A stretch of 36,307 nucleotides of DNA, taken from the NCBI GenBank assembly GCA_016932245.1, contig JAFGDG010000018.1, positions 1 through 36,307 of the forward strand. The letters run 5' to 3'. The position numbers and the translations under genes were made by a program. This document shows, one piece after another, positions 13,692-29,357 of this stretch. Every line of letters starts with the position of its first letter. Within the stretch, counting starts at the first letter, position 1. The DNA is from Thermoplasmatota archaeon. Lineage in GTDB: Archaea; Thermoplasmatota; E2; DHVEG-1. The notes below the pieces were generated by a model that was given only the letters and a program-made list of their open reading frames with translations, was not told the origin of the DNA and did not search any database.

Positions 13692-14594
13692 ATGAAGCTA
13701 TTGTACTATCCTGGATGTACGCTTAAGACCTCTGCAAAAAACCTTGAGAGATCCGCATTTGCCGTTATGGAAGCTTTGGGCCACGAAATGGTAGAAATGG
13801 AGGATTGGAACTGTTGCGGAGTTGTTGCATCTCTTACTGATGATGATCTCATGCATCATCTTGCCCCATTGCGAAGTTTGATACATGTGGAAGATCAAGG
13901 AGAAGATAAGGTTGTAACGCTCTGTGATATGTGTTGTAATACACTTAAACAAACCAACTTAAGAGTGAAAGAAAACTCTGACGACCTTGAGACGCTCAAT
14001 GCGTTTATGGATAGAGAAAATGATTATAAGGGGACTGTAACGGTCATTCATTTTCTTGAGTTTTTACGTGATGAAATTGGTTTTGATGTGATTAAGAAAA
14101 AAGTAAAACGTCCCCTCAAAGGCATACGAATTATGCCGTATTATGGGTGTATGCTTCTCCGTCCACGTGAAGTAGCAATTGATGATGCAGAAGAACCTAC
14201 TATTCTAGGGGACCTTCTTTCTGCGCTTGGCGCAGAAGTTATTGATAATCCATTCAAAATTGAATGCTGTGGTTCATACCATACCGTAGATGAAAAAGAA
14301 TCGGTTTCTAAGAGAGCGCATAGAATTACAAATTTTGCAACTGAGGGGGGTAGTGACGCCATGGTGCTTTCATGCCCGCTTTGCAGGTTTAATCTCGACG
14401 CGCGAGGGAAAGAAGCGGAAAAAATGTTTAAGGACTACAAACAAATACCAGTATTTTACTATACTCAACTTATAGCAATTGCACTTGGTTTAGACCAAAA
14501 CGTGTGTGGTTTCGACCAACATGTTGTAGATCCGCTTCTATTGTTAAAGAAAAAAGGAGTCTTCGAAAAAGAGGATAAAATAATCAAAATTTGA
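13692..14594 (+). CDS. hdrB: HdrB-like subunit (two CCG domains)
   Basis: HdrB carries the non-cubane [4Fe-4S] clusters that reduce a disulfide in methanogens. Both CCG domains are complete. The first has YYPGCTLKTS, WNCCGVV and LCDMCCNTL; the second has YYGCMLLRP, ECCGSYH and SCPLCRFNLD. The length of 300 residues is normal, and it pairs with the hdrC before it. Whether the substrate is CoM-S-S-CoB or another acceptor cannot be seen; no methyl-CoM reductase gene is in the window. The hydrogenase genes follow with no gap. Confidence 0.93.
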   Translation: MKLLYYPGCTLKTSAKNLERSAFAVMEALGHEMVEMEDWNCCGVVASLTDDDLMHHLAPLRSLIHVEDQGEDKVVTLCDMCCNTLKQTNLRVKENSDDLETLNAFMDRENDYKGTVTVIHFLEFLRDEIGFDVIKKKVKRPLKGIRIMPYYGCMLLRPREVAIDDAEEPTILGDLLSALGAEVIDNPFKIECCGSYHTVDEKESVSKRAHRITNFATEGGSDAMVLSCPLCRFNLDARGKEAEKMFKDYKQIPVFYYTQLIAIALGLDQNVCGFDQHVVDPLLLLKKKGVFEKEDKIIKI

Positions 14595-14611
14595 TAAAGA
14601 TGGTGTTAGCG

Positions 14612-15622
14612 ATGGTTAAAGAAAAAAAGAAGGAAGAACCGACAAAAAAGAAAAAACTGCAACTTGCATTTTATTGGGCAGCAAGTTGCGGCGGATGCGA
14701 AATAGCAGTACTTGATATTGATGAAAAGATACTCGATGTCATCGGGCTTGCAGATATTTTATTTTGGCCTGTTGCCATGGACTTTAAGTATAAAGATGTT
14801 GAAGCGATGAAAGACGGAAATATCGACGTGTGTTTCTTTAACGGTGCAATCCGGACAGAAGAACAAGAACATATTGCAAAATTACTGCGAAAGAAATCAA
14901 AGGTTCTTGTTGCCTTTGGTGCTTGTGCAGTAAACGGAGGGATCCCTGGCCTTGCAAATATTGCAAACCGAGAAGAAGTATTTCATACTGCGTATCTTCA
15001 AAATCCATCAACTGACAACCCAAAAAAGACGGTCCCAAAAACCAGCGTAAAGGTCAAAGAGGGTACACTAACGCTACCAGAATTTTATGACACCGTAAAA
15101 ACGCTTGACCAGACCGTTGATGTTGATTATTATTTGCCTGGCTGCCCGCCAACACCTGAAATTATTATGACTGCTGTTGGCGCTATTGTCGAAAATAAGC
15201 TACCGCCAAAAGGATCAGTTATTGGCCCAATGAAGTCGGTGTGTGATGAATGCCGATTTGAAAAAAGTGAGAAAAAAATTACAAAAGTTAGAAGAGTCTA
15301 CGAAGTTGATAAAATCGAAGAGAAGTGTTTACTAGAACAAGGAATTATTTGCCTTGGCCCAGCAACTCGTGGCGGGTGTGACGCACGTTGTCTTGATGCC
15401 AATATGCCCTGCACTGGTTGTGGTGGCCCTACACCAAATTCTCTTGATCAGGGTGCAAAGATGATGTCGGCACTTGCATCCATACTTGGGCTTGAAGGGG
15501 AAGAAAAAATGAGTGATGAAGAAGTTGAAAAATTAATCAATCAAGTGGTTGACCCAGTTGGAACGTTCTACAAATATGGTTTGCCAAATGCTCTGATCAA
15601 CAGGAAGGTGATGAGAAAATGA
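14612..15622 (+). CDS. mvhG: F420-non-reducing NiFe hydrogenase, small subunit
   Basis: This subunit carries the Fe-S relay of an MvhADG-type (group 3c) hydrogenase. Seen: ASCGGCE near the N-terminus, the CxxC of the proximal cluster, FGACAVNGGIPG, PGCPPTPE, and further Cys motifs CDECRFEK, GGCDARC and CTGCGGP for medial and distal clusters. No twin-arginine signal is present, so it is cytoplasmic. The track starts at a TTG (14591) overlapping the hdrB stop; ATGs at 14600 and 14612 are also in frame. I chose 14612 because GGTG precedes it by six bases; the start is uncertain by 21 nt. The stop overlaps mvhA (ATGA). Confidence 0.92.
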   Translation: MVKEKKKEEPTKKKKLQLAFYWAASCGGCEIAVLDIDEKILDVIGLADILFWPVAMDFKYKDVEAMKDGNIDVCFFNGAIRTEEQEHIAKLLRKKSKVLVAFGACAVNGGIPGLANIANREEVFHTAYLQNPSTDNPKKTVPKTSVKVKEGTLTLPEFYDTVKTLDQTVDVDYYLPGCPPTPEIIMTAVGAIVENKLPPKGSVIGPMKSVCDECRFEKSEKKITKVRRVYEVDKIEEKCLLEQGIICLGPATRGGCDARCLDANMPCTGCGGPTPNSLDQGAKMMSALASILGLEGEEKMSDEEVEKLINQVVDPVGTFYKYGLPNALINRKVMRK

Positions 15623-17079
15623 AAACGATTACCATCGATCCGATTACCCGGCTAGAGGGGCACGGAAAAATTAGTATTTTCTTGAATAACAACGGCGATG
15701 TGGAAAATGCCTATCTGCAGATTCCCGAACTCCGTGGTTTTGAGCGGTTTAGCCAAGGGAGAAGAGCAGAGGATATGCCACAAATAACAAGTCGTATCTG
15801 TGGTGTGTGTCCTGTTGCCCATCATTTTGCTGCAACAAAAGCACTCGATGCTGCGTTTCACGTTGACCCGCCATCTGCTGCAAAAAAATTACGAGAGCTC
15901 ATGTATATGGGATACTACATCTACGACCACATCCTCCACTTTTATTACCTCGGTGGCCCTGATTTCGTTGTTGGTCCTGATGCACCACCTGCAAAAAGAA
16001 ACGTAATAGGAGTCATTGAAAAAGCAGGGGTAGAGATTGGAAAGGAAGTAATCAAACATCGTGCATATGGCCAGAAAATCACCGCGATACTTGGCGGAAA
16101 AGCAACCCATCCAGTCTGTGGTCTTCCTGGAGGCATTTCCAAAGGACTCGACAAGGATGAAGTCAAAGACATCAAAACAATGGTAGACTCATGCATAGGG
16201 TTTGCACAATTTTCGCTGAAACTCTTTGACGACATTGTACTCAAAAACAAATCCTATGTTGACCTTATTCTAAGTGATCCGTATCAACTAGCAACGTATA
16301 ATATGGGCCTTGTGGATAAAAACAATAAGGTCAACTTCTACGATGGCAAAATTCGGGTAACAGACCAAAAAGGAAACGAAAAAGTAAAATTTGAGGTGAA
16401 AGACTACTATAAAAACATAGCAGAACACGTCGAAGAATGGACCTACATAAAATTCCCTTATTTGAAAGCAGTGGGGTGGAAAGGTCTTCGGGATGGTAAA
16501 GAAAGTGGGATTTATCGAGTTGGACCTTTAGGTCGACTCAATGCCGCTGAAGGAATGGCGACGCCTCTTGCGGATAAAGAATACAAAAGATTCTACGAGA
16601 CACTCGGCGGTAGAGCAGTAAATTCAACACTTGCGTTCCACTGGGCAAGATTAATAGAACTACTCTATGCAACAGAGCGAGCAAAAGAACTGATTAACGA
16701 TCCTGAAATCACTTCTCAAAAAATCAGAAATCCCGTTGGTGAACCTGGTGAGGGAATGGGCGTTACCGAAGCAGCTCGAGGCACTCTCATCCATCACTAC
16801 AAACTCGACAAGAACGGATTAATCGAGAAAGCCAATCTTATCGTTGCTACAACGAACAACGCAGGAGCAATAAACATGTCAGTTCGAGACGCAGCAAAAG
16901 GACTAATTTCAAAAGGAAAAGTCAGTGATGCCACCCTGAACATGGTGGAAATGGCGTTCCGTGCCTATGATCCTTGCTTTGCGTGTGCAACCCATACGCT
17001 TCCAGGTGGTATGCCCCTAGAAGTGAAGATATTTGACCATAACAAAAAGTTATACAAAACACTGCACCAGAACCTTTAG
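15619..17079 (+). CDS. mvhA: F420-non-reducing NiFe hydrogenase, large (catalytic) subunit
   Basis: This subunit holds the NiFe(CN)2CO site that splits H2. The two Cys pairs are present: RICGVCPVAHH near residue 58 (motif L1) and DPCFACATH near the C-terminus (motif L2). Other family blocks are DPITRLEGHGKI at the N-terminus and MYMGYYIYDHILHFYYLGGP. About 27 residues follow the L2 His, a tail that may be removed by the protease encoded next. The surrounding mvhG, mvhD and hdrABC genes identify it as the MvhADG-Hdr type rather than an F420-reducing or membrane enzyme. It is an intact gene of normal length (486 residues). Confidence 0.94.
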   Translation: MKTITIDPITRLEGHGKISIFLNNNGDVENAYLQIPELRGFERFSQGRRAEDMPQITSRICGVCPVAHHFAATKALDAAFHVDPPSAAKKLRELMYMGYYIYDHILHFYYLGGPDFVVGPDAPPAKRNVIGVIEKAGVEIGKEVIKHRAYGQKITAILGGKATHPVCGLPGGISKGLDKDEVKDIKTMVDSCIGFAQFSLKLFDDIVLKNKSYVDLILSDPYQLATYNMGLVDKNNKVNFYDGKIRVTDQKGNEKVKFEVKDYYKNIAEHVEEWTYIKFPYLKAVGWKGLRDGKESGIYRVGPLGRLNAAEGMATPLADKEYKRFYETLGGRAVNSTLAFHWARLIELLYATERAKELINDPEITSQKIRNPVGEPGEGMGVTEAARGTLIHHYKLDKNGLIEKANLIVATTNNAGAINMSVRDAAKGLISKGKVSDATLNMVEMAFRAYDPCFACATHTLPGGMPLEVKIFDHNKKLYKTLHQNL

Positions 17080-17093
17080 AGGAATGCATTCAT

Positions 17094-17570
17094 ATGAAGA
17101 CCATAGTCCTTGGAATAGGGAACCTGATACTTAGAGACGATGGCGTAGGAATACATGTTGCAAATGAGGTGAAAAAACAAATCAATAATCCAGATGTAAC
17201 TGTGGACGAAGCAATAACTGGCGGAATGAACTTACTGGATTTACTACTAGGATATGACAAAGCAATACTAATCGATGCGGTAAAATCAGATGACGGGGCT
17301 CATGGGGAAGTAAGGAGAATACCTATCAAGGAGTTCAGCACAATGCATTCATGCAATCCTCATGATGTATCATTAATTGAAGCAATAGATATGGCTAAAA
17401 AACTAGGTGAATCACGAATTCCCAAAGAAATAATCATCATCGGTGTGATGATGAGAAAAATACCATGTGAATTTGGCGAAGATCTAAGTGATAAGATTGC
17501 AGCGGCCGTCCCGGAAGCTGTAAAATTAACATTAAATGAGATAAAAAAAGATATGAAAATTTCAAGTTGA
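17094..17570 (+). CDS. NiFe hydrogenase maturation endopeptidase
   Basis: The 158-residue protein matches the HycI/HyaD/FrhD peptidase family that trims the C-terminus of the large subunit after nickel insertion. Seen: GIGNLILRDDGVGIHVANEV at the N-terminus, with the first metal-binding acidic residue, ILIDAVKSDDG with the second Asp, and a His in MHSCNPHDVSLIEA. It lies 14 nt after mvhA, its presumed substrate. Only one hydrogenase and one protease are seen, so the pairing is likely specific. No hypABCDEF genes are in the window and they must be elsewhere. Confidence 0.9.
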   Translation: MKTIVLGIGNLILRDDGVGIHVANEVKKQINNPDVTVDEAITGGMNLLDLLLGYDKAILIDAVKSDDGAHGEVRRIPIKEFSTMHSCNPHDVSLIEAIDMAKKLGESRIPKEIIIIGVMMRKIPCEFGEDLSDKIAAAVPEAVKLTLNEIKKDMKISS

Positions 17571-17582
17571 GGTGAAAAATAT

Positions 17583-18002
17583 ATGGCAAAAGAATTTGAA
17601 CCAAACATAATCGGGTTTTTGTGCAATTGGTGTTCCTATGCAGGTGCAGACCTTGCTGGCACAAGTCGCATCAAGTACCCGCCAAACATCAAATCCATAC
17701 GAGTGATGTGCTCTGGTCGCGTCGATCCAGTATTTGTACTCGAAGCACTCAAAAAAGGAGCAGATGGCGTACTTATTGCAGGATGCCACCCTGGAGATTG
17801 TCATTACCAGTCAGGCAACTACAAGACTAACAGACGTATTAAACTATTAAAGAAATATCTCAATGAAATGGGCATCGAGCCTGAACGTGTACGATTTGAA
17901 TATATCTCTGCTTCTGAGGGGCAAAAATTTGCGCAAGTAGTTACTGACTTTGTCGCTGAGCTGAAAAAACTAGGACCAAGCCCACTCACGGTAGAAGCAT
18001 GA
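17583..18002 (+). CDS. mvhD: MvhD [2Fe-2S] adaptor subunit, copy 1
   Basis: MvhD connects a hydrogenase or dehydrogenase module to HdrA. Seen: FLCNWCSYAGADLAGTSR, VMCSGRVDP and AGCHPGDCHY, with the Cys residues that bind the [2Fe-2S] cluster, and the conserved C-terminal YISASEGQKFAQVV segment. At 139 residues it is a free-standing MvhD. Its place after mvhGA and the protease makes it the hydrogenase-linked copy. The first 64 bases after the start codon region are identical to the second mvhD at 27979 (see findings). The stop overlaps the next gene in an ATGA junction. Confidence 0.93.
   Translation: MAKEFEPNIIGFLCNWCSYAGADLAGTSRIKYPPNIKSIRVMCSGRVDPVFVLEALKKGADGVLIAGCHPGDCHYQSGNYKTNRRIKLLKKYLNEMGIEPERVRFEYISASEGQKFAQVVTDFVAELKKLGPSPLTVEA
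17587..17650 (+). repeat. 64-nt tract identical to the 5' end of the second mvhD
   Basis: Bases 17587-17650 and 27983-28046 are identical, including all synonymous positions, covering codons 2 to about 22 of both mvhD genes. Directly after this tract the two genes differ at many third positions. Confidence 0.9.
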
Positions 18003-19429
18003 AGATTGACATACCAAAACTCAAACAAATAGTCGGCGAGGGCAACGTCCGAGATAACATCGCTGATCTTTATGTCTATGCATCAGATGCATCAGTGCAC
18101 AGCAAACTGCCTGATGTAGTGGTGCGACCGAGCTCTACAAAAGAAGTACAAGAAGTCGTGCGCTATGCCAATAAAAACAAAATACCCGTGGTTGCTCGAG
18201 GAGCAGGGTCAGGAATGAGTGGGCAAACCGTTCCCCTCAGTGGCGGTATCATCCTTGACATGAAAAAAATGGATAAAATTATTGACATTCGTTCCCAAGA
18301 TTTACTCTGCAAAGTACAGCCTGGTGTTATTAACGACGAACTAAACCGCGTATTGAAATCATATGGTTTCTTTTTCCCACCAACACCATCTTCTGGCAGA
18401 ATCTGTACCATTGGAGGGATGATTGGTACCAACGCCTCAGGAAATCGTTCTGTAAAATATGGAGCAACGCGAGATGCCGTATTAGGGATGAAGGTAGTAC
18501 TTGCCAATGGCGATTTGGTAACCCTTGGTTCAAATACAAAGGTCGACTCATCAGGGTATCAGCTGGCACGATTAATAGTGGGATCAGAAGGCACATTAGG
18601 AATTGTCGTCGAGGCCACTCTTCGAATATCCCCTGTACCAAAATATCGTGCAATGGGTGTCGCTAACTTTGCAACTCTTAGAGATGCAGGTAACATGATA
18701 AGTGAAACTATCGCCTCAGGGGTAACTCCATCAATGCTTGAATTGATGGACAACGTGGCAATAACAGCAGTAAACAACGCACAAAACCTAGGATTGCCTG
18801 ATGTCGCAGCAATTGTTATCTTTGAATGCAATGGCATGGTAAAAGAAGCGGTAGATTACGAAATAAATCAAATAAAGGAAATCTCGAAGAGCAACCATGG
18901 AACGGGAATAAAGGTTACCGATGATCCTGATGAGATGGTTCGCATCTACAATGGCCGGAAGAAACTTTTTCCCTCACTTTCCAAATATGCCGAAGGATTG
19001 TATACAACGGCACTTGCTGATGATATGGCAGTGCCGATGTCGAAAATTGCAGATACGGTTCAAAAAATTCATGAAATTGCAAAGAAAAATAATGTGGTTA
19101 TGAGCGCGTATGGCCATTGCGGTGCTGGACTGATCCATACAAAAATTCTCATGGATACGACCAAAAAAGCACAATGGCAAGGTGCAAAAAGGGCAGTGAA
19201 AGAAGTATATGAGTACGTGCAATCTATGGGGGGTACAACTTCCGGTGAACATGGTATTGGGTTTTCCAAAGGGCAATCGTTTAAGGAAGAAAAACAAGAC
19301 TCTCTTGCCATGATGAAAGCAATAAAAAAAGCACTTGACCCCAATAACATTCTTAATCCAAATAAATTGATGGATTCACCTGACGATTGGCTAACCGCAA
19401 CGCCATTACGTTATCAGGTGAGTGCATAA
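17999..19429 (+). CDS. glcD: FAD-linked oxidase of the GlcD/D-lactate dehydrogenase type
   Basis: This VAO/PCMH-family flavoenzyme oxidises 2-hydroxy acids such as glycolate, D-lactate or D-2-hydroxyglutarate. Seen: the FAD-binding block VARGAGSGMSGQTVPLSGG near residue 64, PPTPSSGRICTIGGMIGTNASG, YGATRDAVLGM, and in the C-terminal domain YGHCGAGLIHTKI with the metal-ligand His pair, SGEHGIGFSKG and LDPNNILNPNK. Length (476) is normal and there is no fused Fe-S domain. The next gene supplies the Fe-S/CCG partner, as in GlcD-GlcF and archaeal Dld-HdrD pairs. It overlaps mvhD by 4 nt. The substrate cannot be determined; with Kor and Frd nearby a link to 2-oxoglutarate/2-hydroxyglutarate is possible but only inference. 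Confidence 0.88.
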   Translation: MKIDIPKLKQIVGEGNVRDNIADLYVYASDASVHSKLPDVVVRPSSTKEVQEVVRYANKNKIPVVARGAGSGMSGQTVPLSGGIILDMKKMDKIIDIRSQDLLCKVQPGVINDELNRVLKSYGFFFPPTPSSGRICTIGGMIGTNASGNRSVKYGATRDAVLGMKVVLANGDLVTLGSNTKVDSSGYQLARLIVGSEGTLGIVVEATLRISPVPKYRAMGVANFATLRDAGNMISETIASGVTPSMLELMDNVAITAVNNAQNLGLPDVAAIVIFECNGMVKEAVDYEINQIKEISKSNHGTGIKVTDDPDEMVRIYNGRKKLFPSLSKYAEGLYTTALADDMAVPMSKIADTVQKIHEIAKKNNVVMSAYGHCGAGLIHTKILMDTTKKAQWQGAKRAVKEVYEYVQSMGGTTSGEHGIGFSKGQSFKEEKQDSLAMMKAIKKALDPNNILNPNKLMDSPDDWLTATPLRYQVSA

Positions 19430-19457
19430 GAAATAATCTGTATTCGAGGGAGTGAAT

Positions 19458-20549
19458 TTGGCAGCAAAAACAAAAAAAACGAGAAAGCATCTAGAGCAAT
19501 ATGAAAGAGAAATGAACATGTGCATACGTTGCGCATATTGTTTTGAGAAGTGCCCGGTCATTAAAGAAGTTCAGTGGGATACTGATGGCGCCCGTGGAAA
19601 GGTAATAATGAGTTACGGGCTACTCACTGGAGAATTAGAACCTTCACAATATATTGCTGACAAGCTCTTCCGTTGTACATTTTGCCGCGATTGTCTTGAC
19701 CGTTGCCCATCAAAAGTAAATATTCTGCATATCATCGCTTCAGCGCGGGCAGAAATTGTTGAGGCAGGGTTTGCATCTGATACTCATAAGTACATAATCG
19801 AGAACATTAAAAAAACGGGCAACATCTATGGTGATACTGAAGTCATCTCACAAGAACAAGAAGGAAAAATCCCACTTTTTATCGGCTGCCAGTATCTAGG
19901 ACGGCCAAACAAAACCAAGAAATATCTTAAAATTTTAGAAAAACTAGACATAAAACCTGCTGTTGTTAAAGAAATTTGTTGCGGCTTTCCCATGGAAGTA
20001 CTTGGATTCAAAGATGACTATGAAAAACATAAAGATAATTTCAAAAAACACTTTCCCTTCAAAGAGGCAATTACTCTTTGTCCAACTTGCACTGTTTTTT
20101 TAAAGGAAGGTCATGAGATTAAAGCAAAACATGTATTGCAAATAATACTCGAAAAGTTACCAAAGGCAAATCTTAACATGAAAGTCACCTACCACGATCC
20201 TTGTGATTTTTCTCGCGGATTAAAAATCATTGAAGAGCCGAGAAAAATACTTGAAAAGCTCGGTGTCGAAATTGTTGAGATGAAAAATAACAAAGAAAAC
20301 TCGCGATGTTGTGGCGGTGGTGGTGGTATTCTAATGACTGATCAGGAACTCTCAAACGATATTGCGAAAAAGCGAATACATGAAGCTTTGGAAACGGGCG
20401 TTGACACATTAGTTACTTCATGTCCTACTTGCGAGACAACACTGAAAAAAGCAGCACAAGAAATCGCTGAATCGGAAGGAAAAACCATCTCAGTCAGAAG
20501 TATTGAAGACATTATATGGAAGGGGTTACAAGATGCTGAACGTTCTTAG
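19458..20549 (+). CDS. HdrD/GlcF-like Fe-S protein with two CCG domains
   Basis: This is the electron-accepting partner of the GlcD-type oxidase. Two N-terminal [4Fe-4S] motifs are seen (CIRCAYCFEKCP and CTFCRDCLDRCP). Two CCG domains follow: IGCQYLGRP, EICCGFPMEV, CPTCTVFL, and then YHDPCDFSRG, SRCCGGGGGI, SCPTCETTL. This HdrC+HdrB-like fusion is the layout of HdrD and GlcF. The track begins at a GTG (19452), but GGAG lies only a few bases before it. The TTG at 19458 has GGAG five bases upstream and is preferred, giving 363 residues. The C-terminus overlaps lplA by 17 nt. In Archaeoglobus-type systems such pairs send electrons from lactate to a quinone or disulfide; here HdrABC is the nearest candidate. 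Confidence 0.88.
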   Translation: MAAKTKKTRKHLEQYEREMNMCIRCAYCFEKCPVIKEVQWDTDGARGKVIMSYGLLTGELEPSQYIADKLFRCTFCRDCLDRCPSKVNILHIIASARAEIVEAGFASDTHKYIIENIKKTGNIYGDTEVISQEQEGKIPLFIGCQYLGRPNKTKKYLKILEKLDIKPAVVKEICCGFPMEVLGFKDDYEKHKDNFKKHFPFKEAITLCPTCTVFLKEGHEIKAKHVLQIILEKLPKANLNMKVTYHDPCDFSRGLKIIEEPRKILEKLGVEIVEMKNNKENSRCCGGGGGILMTDQELSNDIAKKRIHEALETGVDTLVTSCPTCETTLKKAAQEIAESEGKTISVRSIEDIIWKGLQDAERS

Positions 20550-21585
20550 GCTTGAACAATTGCCTGGCCAACAGTCAATGCTTGTGTTTCATGCACTTGC
20601 ACGAATGGGATTTGAAGGACTTGTTATAGTCTCACCAAACGTTCCTCTTGCATCAATAGGATATTTCCAAGATGCAACTAAAGAAATAGATCTCGAATAT
20701 TGCAAACAGGCAAAGATTCCAGTTATGCGGCGTGAGGTTGGCGGAGGCGCAACATATCTCGATCGCAATCAGATTTTCTATCAGCTCATTTGGCAGAAAG
20801 GTAATTCTCAGTTTCCGACACGAATTAAAGATGTCTTTCCGTATTTATCACAACCTGCTGTTGACACCTATGGTGATTTTGGGATTCAGACCATGTTCCG
20901 ACCAGAGAATGACATTATTACTAAAGACCATCGTAAAATTGCAGGTGAGGGAGGTGGCGATATCGGCGACAGCATGGTATTTGTCGGTGGCATTCTTATG
21001 GATTTTGATTATGTGACAATGAGTAAAATTTTGAAAGTACCCGATGAAAAATTTCGTGACAAGATCCACAAGTCAATGGAAGAAAATCTGACAACTATGA
21101 AGCGTGAATTAGGCTTTGCGCCAGAAAGAGAAGAAGTCGTCACATCTCTTGTAGGCAACTTTGAAAAGCTCATTGGCACACTCAAACCAATCACGCTAAC
21201 ACAAGACACAATTGATAAAATGATTGAACTTGAAAGGTGGTTCACGAGCGATGCTTTTTTGTATAAAAAAACCCCACGTATTCCCAAAGGTGTAAAAATT
21301 CGTGAAGGGGTGGAGGTTCTTTATAGCACGTATAAAGCTCGCGGAGGGCTCATTCGTACTGCACAAGAGATCAAAGAGAATATGATCGAAACAATCCATA
21401 TTTCTGGGGATTTTCAGTTTTATCCAAAATCAGAACTGTCTGATCTCCAAGAGAGATTAAATAAGACTAAACGTAAAGAGCGAGACATTATCTCAAAAAT
21501 TGAAGATTTTTACGAAAAACATAAGATTGAAAGCCCAGGTGTAGAACCTGAGGATGTTACTGAAGCAATTATGGAGGCGAAATAG
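20533..21585 (+). CDS. lplA: Lipoate-protein ligase A family protein with C-terminal accessory domain
   Basis: The family attaches lipoate (or octanoate) to a lysine of acceptor proteins. Seen: MRREVGGGATYLDRNQIFYQ, matching the RRxxGGGxVYHD lipoyl-binding block; HRKIAGEGGGDIG, with the Lys expected to bind the acyl group; and a C-terminal accessory domain with YKARGGLIRTAQEI and ISGDFQFYP. It ends in a charged coiled-coil-like segment. Many archaea split these two domains into LplA and LplB; here they are one 350-residue chain. The track start (20503) lies in the previous gene; ATG 20533 has GGGG seven bases upstream. No GcvH, 2-oxoacid dehydrogenase E2 or LipS gene is in the window. The neighbours are GlcD/HdrD and HdrCBA genes, reminiscent of the lipoate dependence of sHdr clusters. 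Confidence 0.85.
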   Translation: MLNVLRLEQLPGQQSMLVFHALARMGFEGLVIVSPNVPLASIGYFQDATKEIDLEYCKQAKIPVMRREVGGGATYLDRNQIFYQLIWQKGNSQFPTRIKDVFPYLSQPAVDTYGDFGIQTMFRPENDIITKDHRKIAGEGGGDIGDSMVFVGGILMDFDYVTMSKILKVPDEKFRDKIHKSMEENLTTMKRELGFAPEREEVVTSLVGNFEKLIGTLKPITLTQDTIDKMIELERWFTSDAFLYKKTPRIPKGVKIREGVEVLYSTYKARGGLIRTAQEIKENMIETIHISGDFQFYPKSELSDLQERLNKTKRKERDIISKIEDFYEKHKIESPGVEPEDVTEAIMEAK

Positions 21586-21586
21586 G

Positions 21587-22075
21587 ATGATCGATTCAAA
21601 AGAATTAGATCCGAAATTTAAATATGAAGTGGCAGCTGAAATGGGTGGCACGAACATTACACGGTGTTTTGCATGTGGTACATGTACGGCAGGTTGTCCA
21701 GTACGTGAGATTGATGACAAATATAATCCACGCAAAATCATTCGCATGGTACTTTTAGGTATGCGAGAAAAGGTACTAAAAAGTGATTTTATTTGGCTTT
21801 GCTCTACTTGCTACACCTGCTATGATCGGTGCCCTCAAGATGTACAGCTCACTGCCATTATGACTGCATTGAAAAATATCGCTGCTCGAGAAGGGCACAT
21901 CCACCCCTCATTCAAAGAGCAAGCAAGACTAGTGAGCACCTTTGGACGGTTGTATGAGGTCGAAGATTTTGACAATAAAAAGCGTGAGAAACTTGGTCTT
22001 CCACCCATACAAAAAACTTTTGATGATCTGACTAAGCTTGCTAAAGCATCTCTGCCTAAGAAGGTGATACAGTGA
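21587..22075 (+). CDS. hdrC: HdrC-like iron-sulfur subunit, copy 2
   Basis: This 162-residue subunit has both HdrC cluster motifs, CFACGTCTAGCP and CSTCYTCYDRCPQDVQL. It is longer at the C-terminus than the first HdrC. The track start (21554) is inside lplA; ATG 21587 has GGAGG nine bases upstream and follows the lplA stop by one base. The stop overlaps hdrB as GTGA. With the next two genes it forms a complete hdrCBA set in one translationally coupled block. Confidence 0.93.
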   Translation: MIDSKELDPKFKYEVAAEMGGTNITRCFACGTCTAGCPVREIDDKYNPRKIIRMVLLGMREKVLKSDFIWLCSTCYTCYDRCPQDVQLTAIMTALKNIAAREGHIHPSFKEQARLVSTFGRLYEVEDFDNKKREKLGLPPIQKTFDDLTKLAKASLPKKVIQ

Positions 22076-22953
22076 AATATGCGCTATTTTTAGGATGCAC
22101 AATTCCCGTTCGTGGACAAAATTATGAAATGAGCGCTCGAGAAGTTGCAAAAAAATTAGGGATTGATTTTATTGATATTGCTGAGTTTTCTTGTTGTGGT
22201 TTTCCGGTAAAATCATCGAATGCTGAAACATCGCGCATTATCGCGGCACGCAATATTGCCATTGCATCAAACAAGGGCGAAAACATTTGCACGCTTTGTA
22301 ATGCGTGTACATCTGTTCTCACCGAGGCAAACAAAGAACTTTCCGAGAATAAAGAACTTCGTGAAAAAGTAAATAAGGAGCTAGGGAAAATTGGTCTCGA
22401 GTTTAAACCTGGCGTCAAAATCAAGCATTTTTCACGGATTTTATATGAAGATGTTGGAATAGAAAAAATCCAGAAGAGCATTGAAAAGAACCTCAGCAAA
22501 CTCAGCATGTCCATTCATTACGGATGCCATTATCTGCGTCCATGCGAATTGTACGATGGTTTTGATGATGCAGAAAATCCCTCAACAGTAGAAAATCTTG
22601 TAGCAGTGACTGGTGCAGCAGTTATTGACTACAAAAACAAATTAGAGTGTTGTGGCGGTGCAATTCTCGGTGTTGAGGAAGATATTGCTCTAAAAATGGC
22701 GAAAGATAAGCTTGATAATGTAACAAAAAATAAGGTTGATGCATTGGTTACCATCTGTCCCTTTTGTTCTATTATGTATGAAGACAACCAGAAAAAAATT
22801 GAGTCGAAATTCAACGTTGAATATAATCTCCCAGTGTTATATTACCCACAAGTTCTTGGTCTTGCATTGGGCGTAGAACCAAAACAACTAGGATTTAGAT
22901 TAAATAAAGTAAAAACTAACCGGATTCTTGAAAAATTGGGGGTGGATATATGA
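22072..22953 (+). CDS. hdrB: HdrB-like subunit, copy 2 (two CCG domains)
   Basis: Two CCG domains are complete: FLGCTIPVRG, FSCCGFPVKS and CTLCNACTSVL, then HYGCHYLRP, ECCGGAILG and ICPFCSIMY. It starts at GTG in a GTGA overlap with hdrC and ends in an ATGA overlap with hdrA. The length of 293 residues is normal. It resembles the first HdrB in layout, but the loops around the cluster motifs differ, so the two HdrBC pairs may serve different acceptors or partners. Confidence 0.93.
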   Translation: MKYALFLGCTIPVRGQNYEMSAREVAKKLGIDFIDIAEFSCCGFPVKSSNAETSRIIAARNIAIASNKGENICTLCNACTSVLTEANKELSENKELREKVNKELGKIGLEFKPGVKIKHFSRILYEDVGIEKIQKSIEKNLSKLSMSIHYGCHYLRPCELYDGFDDAENPSTVENLVAVTGAAVIDYKNKLECCGGAILGVEEDIALKMAKDKLDNVTKNKVDALVTICPFCSIMYEDNQKKIESKFNVEYNLPVLYYPQVLGLALGVEPKQLGFRLNKVKTNRILEKLGVDI

Positions 22954-25900
22954 GTAACAAGAATACGAAATCTGACAAGGTTGGCTCTGTTCTCGTTGTT
23001 GGCGGCGGTATTGGTGGGATGCAAGCTGCCCTGGATCTTGCCGATTCTGGATTTAAAACATACCTCTTAGAACAGAACCCCGCCATTGGCGGAGTCATGG
23101 CCCAACTCGATAAAACCTTCCCAACAAATGATTGTTCGATGTGTATTATGTCACCAAAACTAGTGGATGTCGGTCGTCATCCAAATATTGATCTTATCAC
23201 ATACGCTCAGCTAGAAGATATTATCGGCTCAGCTGGGAATTTTAATGTCAAAATAAAGAAAAAGGCAAGTTTCGTTGATGCTGATAAATGTACTGGTTGC
23301 GGAGAATGCGCCGAAGTGTGCCCCGTGATTCTTGAATCAGAGTTTGACGAGGGTCTTGCTAATCGCCATGCAATTTATAAGATGTATCCACAGGCAATTC
23401 CCAATGTATTCACTATCGACAAAGTAGGCATTCCGCCATGTATGGATGCCTGTCCGGCTCATGTCAATGCTCAAGGATATGTTGCTCTTATTCGTCAAGG
23501 TAAATTTCAAGAAGCAGCAGATCTCATTAGAGAACGCAATCCCTTGCCTAGTGTATGCGGTCGAATTTGTACTCATGTTTGTGAAGACAATTGTAATCGT
23601 AATGAAATTGATCAACCCGTTGCCGTTCGAGCGTTAAAGCGTTTCGCCCTTGACTACGAACGTATTCATGGAAGAAAAATCAAAGAAAAAAAGAAGAATC
23701 CTGTGGAAATACGAGGAAAAGGCAGAAAGGTTGCAATCATCGGTTCTGGTCCTGCCGGTCTTACTGTTGCCTATGATCTGGCTAAAATGGGGTACAAACC
23801 TACTATTTTTGAAGCACTTTCAAAAGCAGGTGGCATGCTCCGTGTTGGTGTTCCAAAATATCGTTTACCGCCAGATGTCCTCGATTATGATATCAAGATA
23901 ATTGAAGAAGAGGGAGTCGAGGTTCGTACAAATACCCCCATCGGCCCAGATCTAACGCTCAATGACCTGTATAATGCAGGTTATGAGGCTGTTTTTATTG
24001 CGATTGGTACACACAAGAGTAAAAAGCTTGGAATCGACGGGGAAGATCTTGAGGGTGTTGTACATGCCGCTGGTTTCTTGCATGACCTTGGCATTGGTAA
24101 AAAAATTGATTATCGTGGAAAGATCGTTGCCGTTATCGGTGGTGGAAATGTTGCCATTGATAGTGTTCGTACAGCGCTTCGGCTAGGCGCAAAAACAGCT
24201 TTTGTATTATATCGTCGATCGCGAGCGGAAATTCTTGCTAACCGAGAAGAACTCGAAGAATGTGAGAAAGAAGGAATCTCATTCTATTATCTCACGGCTC
24301 CAACAAAAATCATTGGTGAAAAAGGAAAAGTAAAAGGAGTTGAATGCGTCCGAATGAAGCTTGGCGAGCCGGATGATACGGGTCGTCGACGACCAATACC
24401 TATTGAGGGATCAACATTTACTCTCGATGCTGATGTTGTCATTTCTGCTATTGGTCAAGCTCCCATACTTGAACCGCTTGCTGAGGCAGAAGTTGAACTT
24501 GGTTTAAACAGAGATGGCATCGTGTCTGTGCCAATACAAAACCTTCAACTCGAAGGAGTATTTGGATTCACCGCATTTCTCAAAGCACTTAGTATGGGAC
24601 AAAAGTTAGAAATTGGAAAAAAAGTCCTTGTTGTCGGCGGTGGAAATGTTGCCATTGATGTTGCTCGTTCTGCCGTGCGTATTGGCGGTGAAGATGTCCA
24701 CATGGTCTGTGTTGAATCCCGAGAGGAAATGCCTGCCTTTGATTATGAAATTGAAGAAGCAGAACAAGAAGGAATTGTGATTCATACCCGCCAAATGCCA
24801 AAAAGAATTGTTGGGGTCAGTGGCAGAGCGGTTGGTGTTGAAACTTTAAAAGTTACATCAGTGTTCGATGAAAAAGGAAGATTTAATCCTCAGGTAAAAC
24901 CAAATACTGAGAGGATCATTGAAGCAGATACCATCATTGTTGCTATTGGCCAAGAGGTCGATTATACCCTTTTAAAAGCCGCTGATGGAGTTCTGGTAAC
25001 CAGACGAGGATTATTGCAAGTCGATAACACAACGTATCAGACAAACATTCCATGGATATTTGCTGGCGGTGATGCAGTCGCCGGCCCGGGGCTTGTAATT
25101 GAGGCTATTGCTCATGCTCATGAAGCTGCAGTTTCAATAGATCGACATCTGAACAATGAAGATCTATATGAAGGACGATCTAAAAAGGACATTGTTGTTG
25201 CTCCAAAGCCCGATAAAATATTTGAAAAAATACCTCGTACACAAATACCAAAACGTACCGCTGAGGACAGAGTCACTAATTTTGAGGAGGTGGAACTTCC
25301 TCTGACAGAACAACAAGCCATAAAGGAAGCAGAACGTTGTCTGAGTTGTAACTTCTGCTCCATATGTAAACAATGTGTCGAGGCTTGTAAAGCAGATGCC
25401 ATTGATCATGACATGGTCGAAAAGACGCTTGATCTGAATGTCGGATCTGTCATCTTGGCACCAGGATATGAACTATTTGATGCCCGTCTTAAAAGCGAGT
25501 ATGGATATGGAAGATATCCAAATGTGGTAACATCATTGGAATTCGAAAGAATCCTCTCTGCATCTGGTCCATTCAGCGGTCATGTAGTGAGACCATCTGA
25601 CGAAAAAGAACCGAAACGTATCGCATGGATACAGTGCGTAGGAAGTCGCGATAATACCTGTGGCAATAATTATTGTTCGTCTGTCTGTTGTACGTATGCT
25701 ATTAAAGAAGCGGTGATTGCAAAGGAGCACTCTCCGAAGATAAAACCTACGATTTTCTACATGGATATGAGAACCTACGGAAAGGGATTTGAGCGCTACT
25801 ATAACAGGGCAGAAAACGAACAAGGCGTACGGTTTATTCGCTGTCGTGTATCTGCTGTTGAAGAGAACCCAAAAACAAAGAATCTCCATCTTAAATATGA

Positions 25901-27911
25901 AACAGAAGAGGGAAAACTTGAAACGGAAGAATTTGACATGGTTGTTCTTTCTTGCGGTCTTTCATCACAAGAAAGTATGAAAGAAATCACGAAAAAAATT
26001 GGCGTTAAACTTAATGAATTTGGTTTTTGCGAAACCCAAGAGTTTGATCCTATCTCTACCACAAAACGTGGAATATTTGTCTGTGGGGCATTCTCTGGCC
26101 CAAAAGATATTCCTGAAACTGTCATGGAAGCATCTGGTGCTGCTGCAAAAGCTAGTGGCATAATTGCATCAGAACGCAATACACTGATTGAAAAGAAGGA
26201 ATACCCACCAGAGCGAGATGTATCTGATGAAGAACCACGTATCGGGCTCTTCATATGCCATTGTGGCATAAATATTGGATCATATGTTAATGTGCCATCA
26301 GTGGTAGAATTTGCAAAAACATTACCGAACGTAGCATATGCTGAGGAAAATTTATATACGTGCTCCGATGACACGCAACATAAAATTGTTGAGAAAATAA
26401 AAGAGCACAAGCTTAACAGGGTTATTGTTGCGTCTTGTACACCGCGTACACACGAACCACTATTCCAGGAAACCATTCGTGAAGCTGGACTGAATCCACA
26501 TTTATTTGAAATGGCAAATATCCGTGATCAATGCAGCTGGGTTCATATGAAAGAACCAGAAAAAGCAACGGAGAAAGCTAAACAGTTGGTGAAAATGGCT
26601 GTTGCAAAAGCAGCACTTATTGAGCCATTAAAGACTATTGAACTCGATGTTATTCAGAAAGCTCTTGTAATCGGTGGTGGTCTTGCGGGTATGACTTCTG
26701 CCCTAAGCATAGCTGACCAAGGCTTTGAGGTATATCTTGTTGAAAAAGAAAAAGAGCTTGGTGGAAACCTTCGTAATCTGTATTGGACACTTGAAGATTA
26801 TGACATTCGTCCATATATGCGTTCTATTATTGAAAAAGTAGAGAAACACCCAAAGATAAACGTGTATAAAAAGGCACAGATAGACAAAGTTGAAGGATGC
26901 ATTGGCGGTTATAAAACGACGATTAAAAATGGCACTGCAAAACTTACTGTGGAACACGGCGTTATAATTGTTGCGACTGGCGCCGAGGAGTATAAACCAT
27001 CTGAATATTTGTATGGAAAAGATAATCGGGTGGTAACTCAGCTAGAGCTTGAGAAGAAGCTTGCTGGCGGACAAGATTTTGGCAAGAAAACAGTTGTCAT
27101 GATACAGTGTGTTGGTTCACGAGAAGATGACCGACCCTATTGCAGCAGAATTTGTTGCACAGATGCAATCAAAAATGCACTGAAGATTAAGGAGCGGCAT
27201 CCTGATGCAGAGATCTACATTCTCTATCGAGATATGAGAACCTATGCATTTAGAGAAAGCTATTATGAAAAAGCACGAGAAAAGGGAATTATTTTCATAC
27301 GGTATAACAAAGATAAAAAACCAAAGGTTAAAAAAGGCAGCAGAGGCATTGATGTTGAAATCAAAGATCTCATTCTGAGCGAAAATCTATTGATTCATGC
27401 GGATTATCTTGTTCTAAGTTCTGCCATTATTCCAAGAACAGAAAATATAGAGCTTGCACAGAAACTAAAAGTCCCCTTAAACGAAGACAACTTCTTTTTG
27501 GAGGCTCATGTAAAACTCAGACCAGTTGACTTTGCAACTGAAGGCATCTTCTTAACAGGTTTGGCCCACTCACCAAAATCAATCAATGAAACCATTGCAC
27601 AATCTTATGGCGCAGCATCAAGAGCACTTACCATCATTTCCAAGAACAAGTACTACACTGATGCACCGATTGCCCATGTTGACGAGGACCTTTGTAGCGG
27701 TTGCGGCGTCTGTGAAAAAATCTGCCCATACGGTGCGATTGAAATGATCGTCGAAACGGGAGATGGTAAAACGAAACGACTTTCAAAGGTACTGGAAGGA
27801 GTTTGTAAAGGATGCGGTAGCTGTGTATCTGCTTGCCCCTCAGGTGCAATAGAACAAAAAGGTTTCAAACGCGAACAGATTATTTCAATGATCGATGCAG
27901 CGGCAAAATAA
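22950..27911 (+). CDS. hdrA: Giant HdrA with nested NfnB/GltD-like module and duplicated NAD(P)-binding domain (1653 aa)
   Basis: This is an HdrA-type flavoprotein with several FAD and NAD(P) sites. Order seen: HdrA FAD domain with TFPTNDCSMCIMSPKLVD; CTGCGECAEVCP near residue 113; a GltD/NfnB-type Fe-S start with PPCMDACPAHVNAQGY near 162; FAD loop GSGPAGL near 266; first NAD(P) loop GGGNVAID at 397; a second GGGNVAID at 563; GGDAVAGPG near 705; CSICKQCVEACKADAI near 800; IQCVGSRD; HCGINIGS near 1100; second HdrA unit with IGGGLAGMTSAL near 1238; C-terminal CSGCGVCEKICP and CKGCGSCVSACP. The NfnB part interrupts the HdrA insert region rather than being added at an end. The second NAD(P) domain adds about 160 residues relative to the homologue at 31209. 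It should couple NAD(P)H, ferredoxin and HdrBC redox reactions. Confidence 0.9.
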   Translation: MSNKNTKSDKVGSVLVVGGGIGGMQAALDLADSGFKTYLLEQNPAIGGVMAQLDKTFPTNDCSMCIMSPKLVDVGRHPNIDLITYAQLEDIIGSAGNFNVKIKKKASFVDADKCTGCGECAEVCPVILESEFDEGLANRHAIYKMYPQAIPNVFTIDKVGIPPCMDACPAHVNAQGYVALIRQGKFQEAADLIRERNPLPSVCGRICTHVCEDNCNRNEIDQPVAVRALKRFALDYERIHGRKIKEKKKNPVEIRGKGRKVAIIGSGPAGLTVAYDLAKMGYKPTIFEALSKAGGMLRVGVPKYRLPPDVLDYDIKIIEEEGVEVRTNTPIGPDLTLNDLYNAGYEAVFIAIGTHKSKKLGIDGEDLEGVVHAAGFLHDLGIGKKIDYRGKIVAVIGGGNVAIDSVRTALRLGAKTAFVLYRRSRAEILANREELEECEKEGISFYYLTAPTKIIGEKGKVKGVECVRMKLGEPDDTGRRRPIPIEGSTFTLDADVVISAIGQAPILEPLAEAEVELGLNRDGIVSVPIQNLQLEGVFGFTAFLKALSMGQKLEIGKKVLVVGGGNVAIDVARSAVRIGGEDVHMVCVESREEMPAFDYEIEEAEQEGIVIHTRQMPKRIVGVSGRAVGVETLKVTSVFDEKGRFNPQVKPNTERIIEADTIIVAIGQEVDYTLLKAADGVLVTRRGLLQVDNTTYQTNIPWIFAGGDAVAGPGLVIEAIAHAHEAAVSIDRHLNNEDLYEGRSKKDIVVAPKPDKIFEKIPRTQIPKRTAEDRVTNFEEVELPLTEQQAIKEAERCLSCNFCSICKQCVEACKADAIDHDMVEKTLDLNVGSVILAPGYELFDARLKSEYGYGRYPNVVTSLEFERILSASGPFSGHVVRPSDEKEPKRIAWIQCVGSRDNTCGNNYCSSVCCTYAIKEAVIAKEHSPKIKPTIFYMDMRTYGKGFERYYNRAENEQGVRFIRCRVSAVEENPKTKNLHLKYETEEGKLETEEFDMVVLSCGLSSQESMKEITKKIGVKLNEFGFCETQEFDPISTTKRGIFVCGAFSGPKDIPETVMEASGAAAKASGIIASERNTLIEKKEYPPERDVSDEEPRIGLFICHCGINIGSYVNVPSVVEFAKTLPNVAYAEENLYTCSDDTQHKIVEKIKEHKLNRVIVASCTPRTHEPLFQETIREAGLNPHLFEMANIRDQCSWVHMKEPEKATEKAKQLVKMAVAKAALIEPLKTIELDVIQKALVIGGGLAGMTSALSIADQGFEVYLVEKEKELGGNLRNLYWTLEDYDIRPYMRSIIEKVEKHPKINVYKKAQIDKVEGCIGGYKTTIKNGTAKLTVEHGVIIVATGAEEYKPSEYLYGKDNRVVTQLELEKKLAGGQDFGKKTVVMIQCVGSREDDRPYCSRICCTDAIKNALKIKERHPDAEIYILYRDMRTYAFRESYYEKAREKGIIFIRYNKDKKPKVKKGSRGIDVEIKDLILSENLLIHADYLVLSSAIIPRTENIELAQKLKVPLNEDNFFLEAHVKLRPVDFATEGIFLTGLAHSPKSINETIAQSYGAASRALTIISKNKYYTDAPIAHVDEDLCSGCGVCEKICPYGAIEMIVETGDGKTKRLSKVLEGVCKGCGSCVSACPSGAIEQKGFKREQIISMIDAAAK

Positions 27912-27978: not shown

Positions 27979-28407
27979 ATGACAAAAGAATTTGAACCAA
28001 ACATAATCGGGTTTTTGTGCAATTGGTGTTCCTATGCAGGTGCAGATCTTGCAGGAACAAGTAGGATTCAATATCCGCCAAATGTAAAAATAATACGAGT
28101 GATGTGTTCAGGTCGCATTAATCCTATTTTTGTCCTTAACGCTTTACAGCAGGGGATAGATGGTGTGATTATCGGTGGTTGTCATCCTGGTGAATGCCAT
28201 TATGAAACTGGAAACTACCTCACACGTCGACGCATCACAGTTTTGAAGAAATTATTGGAATATATTGGAATTGATCCACGCCGTGTTCAGATGACCTGGA
28301 TTTCTGCATCTGAAGGCGCCAAGTTTGCTGATGTGATTAAAGCTGCTACAGATGAAATAAGAAATCTTGGCCCCATACAGAAAATCAAAAGGAGAAATGA
28401 ATGGTAG
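27979..28407 (+). CDS. mvhD: MvhD/FlxD [2Fe-2S] adaptor subunit, copy 2
   Basis: This 142-residue paralogue of the hydrogenase-linked MvhD has the same cluster Cys motifs (FLCNWCSYAGADLAG, VMCSGRINP, GGCHPGECHY). It is followed by three Fe-S/flavin genes and an HdrA-NfnB fusion, the neighbourhood of FlxD in flxABCD-hdr clusters, so it probably links the NAD(P)H dehydrogenase module to HdrA. GGAGG lies three bases before the ATG. It overlaps the next gene by 7 nt. Its first codons are nucleotide-identical to copy 1 over 64 nt, while the remainder is clearly diverged. Confidence 0.92.
   Translation: MTKEFEPNIIGFLCNWCSYAGADLAGTSRIQYPPNVKIIRVMCSGRINPIFVLNALQQGIDGVIIGGCHPGECHYETGNYLTRRRITVLKKLLEYIGIDPRRVQMTWISASEGAKFADVIKAATDEIRNLGPIQKIKRRNEW
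27983..28046 (+). repeat. 64-nt tract identical to the 5' end of the first mvhD
   Basis: This is the partner of the tract at 17587-17650. Identity covers every base, including silent positions, and ends abruptly at codon 22, where copy 1 has GAC and copy 2 has GAT. Confidence 0.9.
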
Positions 28408-29354
28408 ATAATAAAGAACTAAGGCAAGAAATCCAAAAGATCTTGAAACAGGATGATGTCAAATATGTGATTTGTTACAAGAAGGGAACATATGGTTTTC
28501 AAACTACTCCATATTTTGTTTCAAAAAAGGACAATATTACTGAAATCATTTTTTCTCCGTTATGCGTAAATAATCTCTCGTCGTATGTCAAGTCCGAAGA
28601 GGAAAATAAAAAAATTGGAGTAGTGGTAAAAGGGTGTGATTCTAGGACACTTGTACAGATGTTAAACGAAAAACGACTACCGCGTGAGAGGTTGATAATA
28701 ATTGGTGTTGCATGTGGGGGTGTAATAGATGTTAAAAAACTCCAAAAGAATATTTCTGAACCTTTAGAGAACATTGATGTTTTTGAAGAAAAAGACAAAT
28801 TTGTTTTGCAGTTCAATAATAAAAAACAAACTATTCGTAAAAAAGAAGTTTTACTTGATAAATGTCTTCATTGTGAATATCCGACACCACTCAATTATGA
28901 TGTCCTAATTGGAGAAAAAACTAAATCACTTGGCAATGAGGAATATAAAGACGTGAAAGATTTCGAAAAGAAAAAACCTGATGAAAAATGGAAGTTTTGG
29001 GAGGAGCAATTTAGCTGTTGTATTAGGTGTTATGCTTGTCGCAATGTCTGCCCAGTTTGTTACTGTGAGAAATGTATGGCTGAGCAATTGGATCCGCAAT
29101 GGCTTTGCCGTTCAGTGAACCTTTCTGAGAATGCAGTATGGCATATTATACGTGCTTTTCATTTGGCTGGCCGATGTACTGGCTGTGGAGAATGTGAACG
29201 TGCTTGTCCCATGGATATACCATTGATGTTATTAAATAAAAAAATGGAAAAAGATGTCAAAGAACTTTTTGATTATAGCGCTGGAGTGGAACTAGGCAGT
29301 AAACCTTTACTGGCAATATTTAAACCTGATGACCCTGAGGAGGATATCAAATAA
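28401..29354 (+). CDS. FlxC-like / FrhB-N-like 4Fe-4S dicluster protein
   Basis: The N-terminal half resembles the F420 hydrogenase/dehydrogenase beta-subunit fold, with KGCDSRTLVQML and IIIGVACGGVID as typical blocks. The C-terminal half has an unusual Cys string CCIRCYACRNVCPVCYCEKC and then CTGCGECERACPMDIP, for two [4Fe-4S] clusters, plus CLHCEYPTP in between. Proteins of this kind accompany MvhD, HdrA and Asr/Flx-like subunits in anaerobes. The likely role is electron relay between the NAD(P)H-oxidising flavoprotein encoded two genes on and MvhD/HdrA. F420 binding is possible from the family but not shown. It overlaps mvhD by 7 nt. Confidence 0.75.
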   Translation: MVDNKELRQEIQKILKQDDVKYVICYKKGTYGFQTTPYFVSKKDNITEIIFSPLCVNNLSSYVKSEEENKKIGVVVKGCDSRTLVQMLNEKRLPRERLIIIGVACGGVIDVKKLQKNISEPLENIDVFEEKDKFVLQFNNKKQTIRKKEVLLDKCLHCEYPTPLNYDVLIGEKTKSLGNEEYKDVKDFEKKKPDEKWKFWEEQFSCCIRCYACRNVCPVCYCEKCMAEQLDPQWLCRSVNLSENAVWHIIRAFHLAGRCTGCGECERACPMDIPLMLLNKKMEKDVKELFDYSAGVELGSKPLLAIFKPDDPEEDIK

Positions 29355-29357
29355 AAA

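Follow-up and report, generated by a model that had tools for sequence, protein, structure and literature searches.

Why should a gene for a lipoate-protein ligase be embedded in a cluster of hdr genes? The question is raised by a 36,307-nucleotide stretch of DNA from a Thermoplasmatota archaeon (the window), within which we found no gene for a lipoyl acceptor. The original prediction offered two answers: that a lipoylated carrier encoded elsewhere is used by Hdr, or that the ligase-fold protein has been recruited for another acyl group. The features of the window are collected in Table 1.

Table 1. Features of the hdr cluster surrounding lplA2, in order of position in the window.
Feature	Coordinates	Strand	Remarks
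hdrB2 (two CCG motifs), mvhG, mvhA ([NiFe] hydrogenase), hycI protease, mvhD	13692..18002	+	Upstream hydrogenase module
glcD-like FAD 2-hydroxyacid dehydrogenase	17999..19429	+	Conserved partner upstream of hdrD-lplA2
hdrD/TfrB-like Fe-S protein, two 4Fe-4S and two CCG disulfide-reductase motifs	19452..20549	+	Overlaps lplA2
lplA2, single-chain lipoate-protein ligase (LplA catalytic and LplB accessory domain), 350 aa	20533..21585	+	ORF, domain, tree and structure searches
hdrC, two 4Fe-4S motifs	21587..22075	+	Motif scan, NCBIfam
hdrB, two complete CCG motifs; proposed lipoyl disulfide/dithiol site	22072..22953	+	Motif scan
hdrA, 1653 aa, bifurcating-type flavoprotein with extra insert	22950..27911	+	Conserved beside lplA2-hdrCB in relatives
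mvhD, two FrhB/HydB-like Fe-S proteins, HydG-like FAD/NAD(P) protein, second large hdrA	27979..35696	+	

The ligase gene, lplA2, is intact, running from an ATG at 20533 to a TAG at 21583-21585, and its 350-residue product carries both the catalytic and the accessory domain that had been predicted for it. It overlaps the HdrD-like open reading frame by 17 bp, and a single base separates its stop codon from the start of hdrC. The LplA-B_cat domain is recognised by Pfam with 111 bits (E=8e-32; cut-off 27) and Lip_prot_lig_C with 25.1 bits (cut-off 24). The NCBIfam model for the LplB small subunit gives 60 bits, under its cut-off of 65, indicating that the C-terminal accessory domain is present but divergent. 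This domain is required by lipoate ligases for activation of the acid.

Across an alignment of 22 sequences, the RR-x2-GGG motif (R66, R67 and G70-G72) and the catalytic K135 are invariant. However, the active-site segment is altered (RREVGGG..YLD), with GGGDIGDSMVFVGG where the canonical sequence is QHGT; FVGG stands in place of QHGT in LplA2, and FQGT in the DUF116-fused ligase described below. Loss of lipoyl-binding residues, which would have spoken against the lipoyl interpretation, is thus addressed in part only: the arginines, glycines and lysine are kept, but this segment is changed. The QHGT/HHGT segment is frequent, though not defining, in canonical ligases, and its replacement suggests that the substrate details of LplA2 may differ. 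An AlphaFold2 model built from an input alignment of 22 sequences (mean pLDDT 81) has only lipoate ligases as its best PDB matches, among them 3r07, a bipartite ligase from an archaeon (TMt 0.85), and 2art, a ligase with bound lipoyl-AMP (TMt 0.82). By its domains, motif and lysine, LplA2 is thus predicted to be a lipoate-protein ligase of the LplA/B superfamily with ATP-dependent activity.

The window's HdrB, HdrB2 and HdrD proteins contain two complete CX~30CCX~35CXXC motifs apiece, and with these intact CCG pairs the cluster encodes more than one active site of the disulfide type. The top-scoring NCBIfam model for HdrD is TfrB, a subunit of methanogen thiol:fumarate reductase, although its score lies far under the cut-off. 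The genes from the second mvhD to the second large hdrA probably form an electron input/output module. The HdrA-type proteins encoded at 22950-27911 (1653 aa) and 31209-35696 (1495 aa) have in common a long insert resembling a GltD-type NAD(P)H/FAD module, which is absent from the 1106-aa HdrA encoded at 9886-13206.

Although no acceptor is in view within the window, this does not hold for the genome. A search of the assembly (G000; 1.62 Mb in 161 contigs; completeness 89%) by protein family and by individual stretches revealed three GcvH-family proteins. One, on contig C47, is a canonical GcvH whose gene adjoins gcvT; a TAG codon that had seemed to lie oddly inside this gene is its normal stop. 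The other two, here termed GcvHx (144 aa each, 80% mutual identity), are encoded on C55 (8 kb) and C130 (4.6 kb), where each stands last in a cluster of [NiFe]-hydrogenase genes, a maturation protease gene and a gene for an OsmC-like protein. Neither lies on the lplA2 contig; the window itself carries the ligase only. No E2 protein was found in G000. Family and gene neighbourhood mark its other biotin/lipoyl domains as biotin carriers, and E2 lipoyl domains were rejected as acceptors. A canonical split LplA/LplB and the lipoyl synthase LipA are encoded together on C102. Since these ligase and synthase genes, and GcvH-GcvT, are present separately, LplA2 is an extra ligase that glycine cleavage does not need. 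The search for GcvH/LbpA and LipS genes proposed originally was thus rewarded for the carriers and not for the synthase: matches to LipS1 were weak radical-SAM background, and LipS1 was rejected as the lipoyl synthase of a genome that has LipA. LipA or scavenged lipoate must presumably serve in its place.

When LplA2 was used as a query against 390 Thermoplasmatota genomes (threshold >500 bits), it was found in nine, from five family-level groups; it also occurs in Aerophobetes, Coprothermobacterota and Zixiibacteriota. The 14 loci (nine archaeal and five more from the carrier scan) form one clade (SH-aLRT 97), which is distinct both from canonical LplA and from another Hdr-linked type of ligase that is fused to DUF116. 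Context maps, in which gene labels are uncurated best BLASTP matches to reference proteins of G000 and its sisters, show an hdr gene as the immediate co-directional neighbour of lplA2 in 11/14 cases, a set that spans five family-level groups of archaea and the Aerophobetes. The lplA2-hdr junctions usually overlap or are 0-3 bp apart, and the order glcD-hdrD-lplA2-hdrC/B is repeated in six archaea. Two of the remaining loci have GcvHx together with glcD or fum/hdrA genes, and one (G009) is unlinked. The linkage of lplA to hdrCB, which the original prediction had suggested following in relatives, is therefore upheld; the opposite pattern, a ligase gene away from hdr and beside glycine cleavage, does not appear, as a glycine cleavage operon adjoins lplA2 in 0/14 loci. 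Conservation in other families and phyla indicates that the arrangement is not due to chance.

Several of these loci bring ligase and carrier together. The operon of G023 reads lplA2-hdrC-hdrB-hdrA-GcvHx, and that of two Aerophobetes reads fumA-fumB-GcvHx-lplA2-hdrC-hdrB-hdrA-sdhB-sdhA. GcvHx lies immediately 5' of lplA2 in three bacterial loci, and a GcvHx-lplA2 pair is present in Coprothermobacterota. G356 has GcvHx oriented divergently to glcD-hdrD-lplA2-hdrC, with genes for ligase-DUF116, LipT and LipS1 further along the cluster. On shared contigs the two genes are 3-25 kb apart in G356, G236, G044 and G063 (9-25 kb in the latter three). A more distant LplA2 relative (~330 aa) is followed directly by a divergent GcvHx in four further loci (L202, L203, L201 and L163). 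LipS2 and ligase-DUF116 come next in L201-L203, giving two ligases per locus, and L163 and L203 each contain two carriers.

GcvHx is separated from canonical GcvH by a branch with SH-aLRT support of 99, and the lipoyl lysine (Lys70) is kept in 107/107 GcvHx-type rows. Close GcvHx proteins (>200 bits in a scan of the 390 genomes of the phylum) are present in 14/390 genomes overall and in 7/9 LplA2 genomes (hypergeometric 5e-10, a value that ignores kinship). Conversely, 11/14 GcvHx genomes have LplA2 or ligase-DUF116 (1e-12, likewise ignoring kinship), six with LplA2 only, four with ligase-DUF116 only and one with both. Mutual exclusion of the two ligases was considered, and the genomes are too few for significance. 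GcvHx is without a dedicated ligase in G012, G197 and G003; in the last of these the carrier gene (L083, contig C26, 454-883) is frameshifted, an apparent loss of both carrier and ligase. Eighty carrier loci in named genomes were compared over at most 10 kb on either side, many of them truncated by contig ends; none has gcvT near GcvHx. Within this distance 43 contain hdr, hdrD or glcD, 18 of them with a ligase or Lip gene as well, and in the other 37 no gene of these three kinds was recognised. These results give good comparative support to a carrier-ligase link between GcvHx and LplA2.

The carrier ranges over Thermoplasmatota, Altiarchaeota and Bathyarchaeota among the archaea, and over Desulfobacterota, Syntrophaceae, WOR-3, Stahlbacteria, Sumerlaeota, Zixiibacteriota, Aerophobetes and Caldisericia among the bacteria. 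In a Deltaproteobacteria/Desulfobacteraceae subgroup (L105-L109, L113, L114, L119, L121, L131 and L133), it stands in the order 430-463 aa gene-GcvHx-ligase-LipS2 with no hdr gene nearby. The 430-463 aa gene is hisD-like (Pfam, checked in L106), and GcvHx is thus not exclusively linked to Hdr. In WOR-3/Stahlbacteria clusters (L164 7563-10420; also L144, L159 and L140), hdrA-mvhD-hydB-hydG-hdrA-hdrC-hdrB is followed by two genes of the DsrE family, identified as such by Pfam in L164, and then by GcvHx. These look like a sulfur-relay version of a lipoyl-Hdr system, and the DsrE proteins suggest sulfur roles in some branches. Elsewhere an OsmC/Ohr-like gene directly precedes GcvHx (L009 4971-5414; L010 732-1172; L080 12450-12890). 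The cysteines of the OsmC-like protein, C60 and C127, are spaced roughly as in Ohr, which in C. glutamicum has Cys60/Cys124, and Ohr enzymes are reduced by lipoylated proteins (PMC4486171). This fits a lipoyl carrier without proving one.

The nature of the group on GcvHx is indicated by sister genomes. In G019 the order glcD-hdrD-hdrC-hdrB-hdrA-hydrogenase-protease-OsmC-GcvHx is followed by genes for ligase-DUF116, a LipT-like flavoprotein and, both scoring under their cut-offs, LipS1 (226.7 against 230 bits) and LipS2 (244.8 against 270 bits). LipS1/S2 are lipoyl synthases that partner LplA-type ligases (PMC10332631). Their position after GcvHx, with LipT, makes lipoyl very probably the cofactor, and by far the likeliest group on this carrier. 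Together with the two GcvHx copies in G000 and their counterparts in the lplA2-hdrCBA operons of G023 and Aerophobetes, this strongly favours a lipoylated carrier encoded elsewhere and used by Hdr over another acyl group, the use by HdrB being what we infer from gene content.

Which disulfide, then, do the CCG sites serve? McrA (MCR_alpha_N) and ComA were found in 0/40 genomes (G000 and 39 relatives), with positive controls, so that CoM-S-S-CoB is an unlikely Hdr substrate, although the absence of ComA is compatible with the second CoM pathway. Given the several CCG sites, a dedicated lipoyl carrier becomes the best candidate for a shared disulfide. We consider it likely that LplA2 lipoylates GcvHx and that the lipoyl disulfide/dithiol serves HdrB/HdrD in place of CoM-S-S-CoB in these non-methanogenic Thermoplasmatota. 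The first step has strong comparative support: with ATP, LplA2 would activate lipoate or octanoate and attach it to Lys70 of GcvHx; if octanoate is used, sulfur would be added by LipA in G000 or by LipS1/S2 in the sisters. The lipoyl group would then act as a mobile substrate for HdrB at its CCG sites, and probably for HdrD and HdrB2 too. Through it, 2-hydroxyacid oxidation by GlcD-HdrD, the hydrogenase and, among relatives, enzymes resembling fumarate reductase would be connected to HdrA and its bifurcation or confurcation of electrons. The TfrB-like HdrD and the sdhBA/fumAB genes beside the Aerophobetes GcvHx-lplA2 pair hint by analogy that lipoyl-GcvHx could be the counterpart of CoM-SH/CoB-SH. 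More tentatively, the OsmC-like protein might be a lipoyl-dependent reductase acting on the same carrier. The redox potentials are about -290 mV for lipoamide and about -140 mV for CoM-S-S-CoB. H2-driven bifurcation would thus find a weak acceptor in the lipoyl group, which suits the H2-producing, confurcating direction better. The Hdr-type complex of Sporomusa ovata is unaffected by lipoate, which was assayed in its free and not its protein-bound form (PMC9430772).

Lipoylated GcvHx might instead bind sulfane sulfur in a persulfide relay, as proposed for LbpA, and carry no electrons as a disulfide. The sHdr-LbpA precedent, the two DsrE-family genes between hdrCB and GcvHx in the WOR-3 relatives and the branching of true-sHdr LbpA proteins on the GcvHx side of the tree all lend this some weight. 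Yet neither the window cluster nor the archaeal LplA2 loci have a recognisable DsrE or TusA-like gene alongside, both LbpA cysteines are missing from the GcvHx clade of the window, and the modules that the cluster does contain are those for hydrogenase, 2-hydroxyacids and fumarate; we regard a relay here as improbable. Less probable still is that LplA2 is an ordinary second ligase for canonical GcvH whose location among hdr genes is incidental. Canonical GcvH is indeed encoded in G000, and in G009, the sole LplA2 genome that lacks both hdr linkage and GcvHx, the only GcvH is the canonical one, encoded 38 kb from lplA2 on a shared contig. Against this, G000 already has its canonical LplA/LplB/LipA operon, the hdr linkage extends over several phyla, and nearly all GcvH-bearing relatives are without LplA2.

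That the ligase-fold protein loads GcvHx with a different acyl group or redox cofactor could account for the replaced QHGT segment, and is very unlikely given the invariant RR, GGG and Lys135, the retained accessory domain, the lipoate ligases found as best structural matches, the linkage of the carrier to LipS1/S2 in sisters, and the clustering of LplA2 with ligase-DUF116, LipT and LipS1 in G356. Equally slight is the prospect that LplA2 is a structural or regulatory Hdr subunit and no working ligase, as its tight coupling to hdrD/hdrC and the second, potentially relieving ligase in the G356 cluster might suggest, for the catalytic lysine and glycine motif are invariant across the clade and LplA2 and ligase-DUF116 occur mostly in different GcvHx genomes.

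Returning to lipoyl-GcvHx as the disulfide substrate of Hdr, the wider reading would be a widespread, largely undescribed HdrABC metabolism of archaea and bacteria in which lipoyl bound to a GcvH-like protein, loaded by its own ligase, forms a shared disulfide/dithiol pool that stands in for CoM/CoB and couples flavin-based bifurcation to hydrogenase, to the oxidation of 2-hydroxyacids and to the reduction of fumarate; to this we give an even chance. HdrABC genes occur far beyond the methanogens, and GcvHx loaded by LplA2 offers a concrete, testable candidate for the disulfide there. If this is true, lipoate would be a third Hdr substrate pool besides CoM-S-S-CoB and sulfur-loaded LbpA, and the view of energy metabolism in uncultured Thermoplasmatota, Aerophobetes, Sumerlaeota, Syntrophaceae and WOR-3 would be altered.

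Among known systems, sHdr-LbpA (sLpl(AB)-LipS1/S2-LipT) is similar in that a GcvH-like carrier, its own ligase and Hdr are encoded together. In that system dedicated ligases serve LbpA (PMC6067878, PMC10332631) and sulfur chemistry is involved (PMC6067878). Ligase and carrier are both linked to hdr genes in G023, G356 and Aerophobetes, and LipS1/S2 and LipT are found in sisters. The window differs in its order, glcD-hdrD-lplA2-hdrC-hdrB-hdrA and not hdrC1B1A-hyp-hdrC2B2, in its large bifurcating-type HdrA with MvhD, hydrogenase and GlcD as partners, and in a GcvHx without a cysteine near both termini. The terminal-cysteine pair is present in eight carriers, from the sHdr-bearing Thermoplasmatota families f14 and f50. 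In three loci of these families (L214, L215 and L216), sHdr-type clusters include a two-cysteine LbpA and a ligase of their own, and L216 has the full hdrC1B1A-hyp-hdrC2B2 order together with DsrE-like proteins. The LbpA-type proteins of true sHdr clusters branch on the GcvHx side of the tree, whereas their ligases, within the same phylum, form a clade different from LplA2. Measured against these three loci, the window does not belong to sHdr, which was rejected on gene order and carrier cysteines; the cluster is of the classical HdrABC/Mvh type, as first proposed.

With methanogen HdrABC-MvhAGD it shares HdrABC, MvhDGA and the CCG motifs. Mcr and ComA are missing, and the linked lipoyl carrier and ligase point to another disulfide. 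LplA2 resembles the bipartite LplA/LplB of Thermoplasma acidophilum and the Mycoplasma Lpl in fold, RR..GGG motif, catalytic lysine and accessory domain, and differs in being one chain, in its changed QHGT segment and in its linkage to Hdr. A precedent for the carrier, and the only proposal of a lipoyl carrier for HdrABC that we found in the literature, is the Ehe hydrogenase/HdrBC cluster of Culexarchaeia, where a GcvH gene likewise adjoins hdr genes and GcvH was proposed as disulfide carrier for HdrB (PMC9723716). That cluster is of the membrane-bound group 4, whereas the modules described here are soluble, are accompanied by LipS1/S2/LipT in sisters and are spread broadly over archaea and bacteria. 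Beyond the Culexarchaeia proposal, the present analysis contributes a dedicated ligase with a conserved position within the hdr operon, a connection to lipoyl synthases and a wide distribution.
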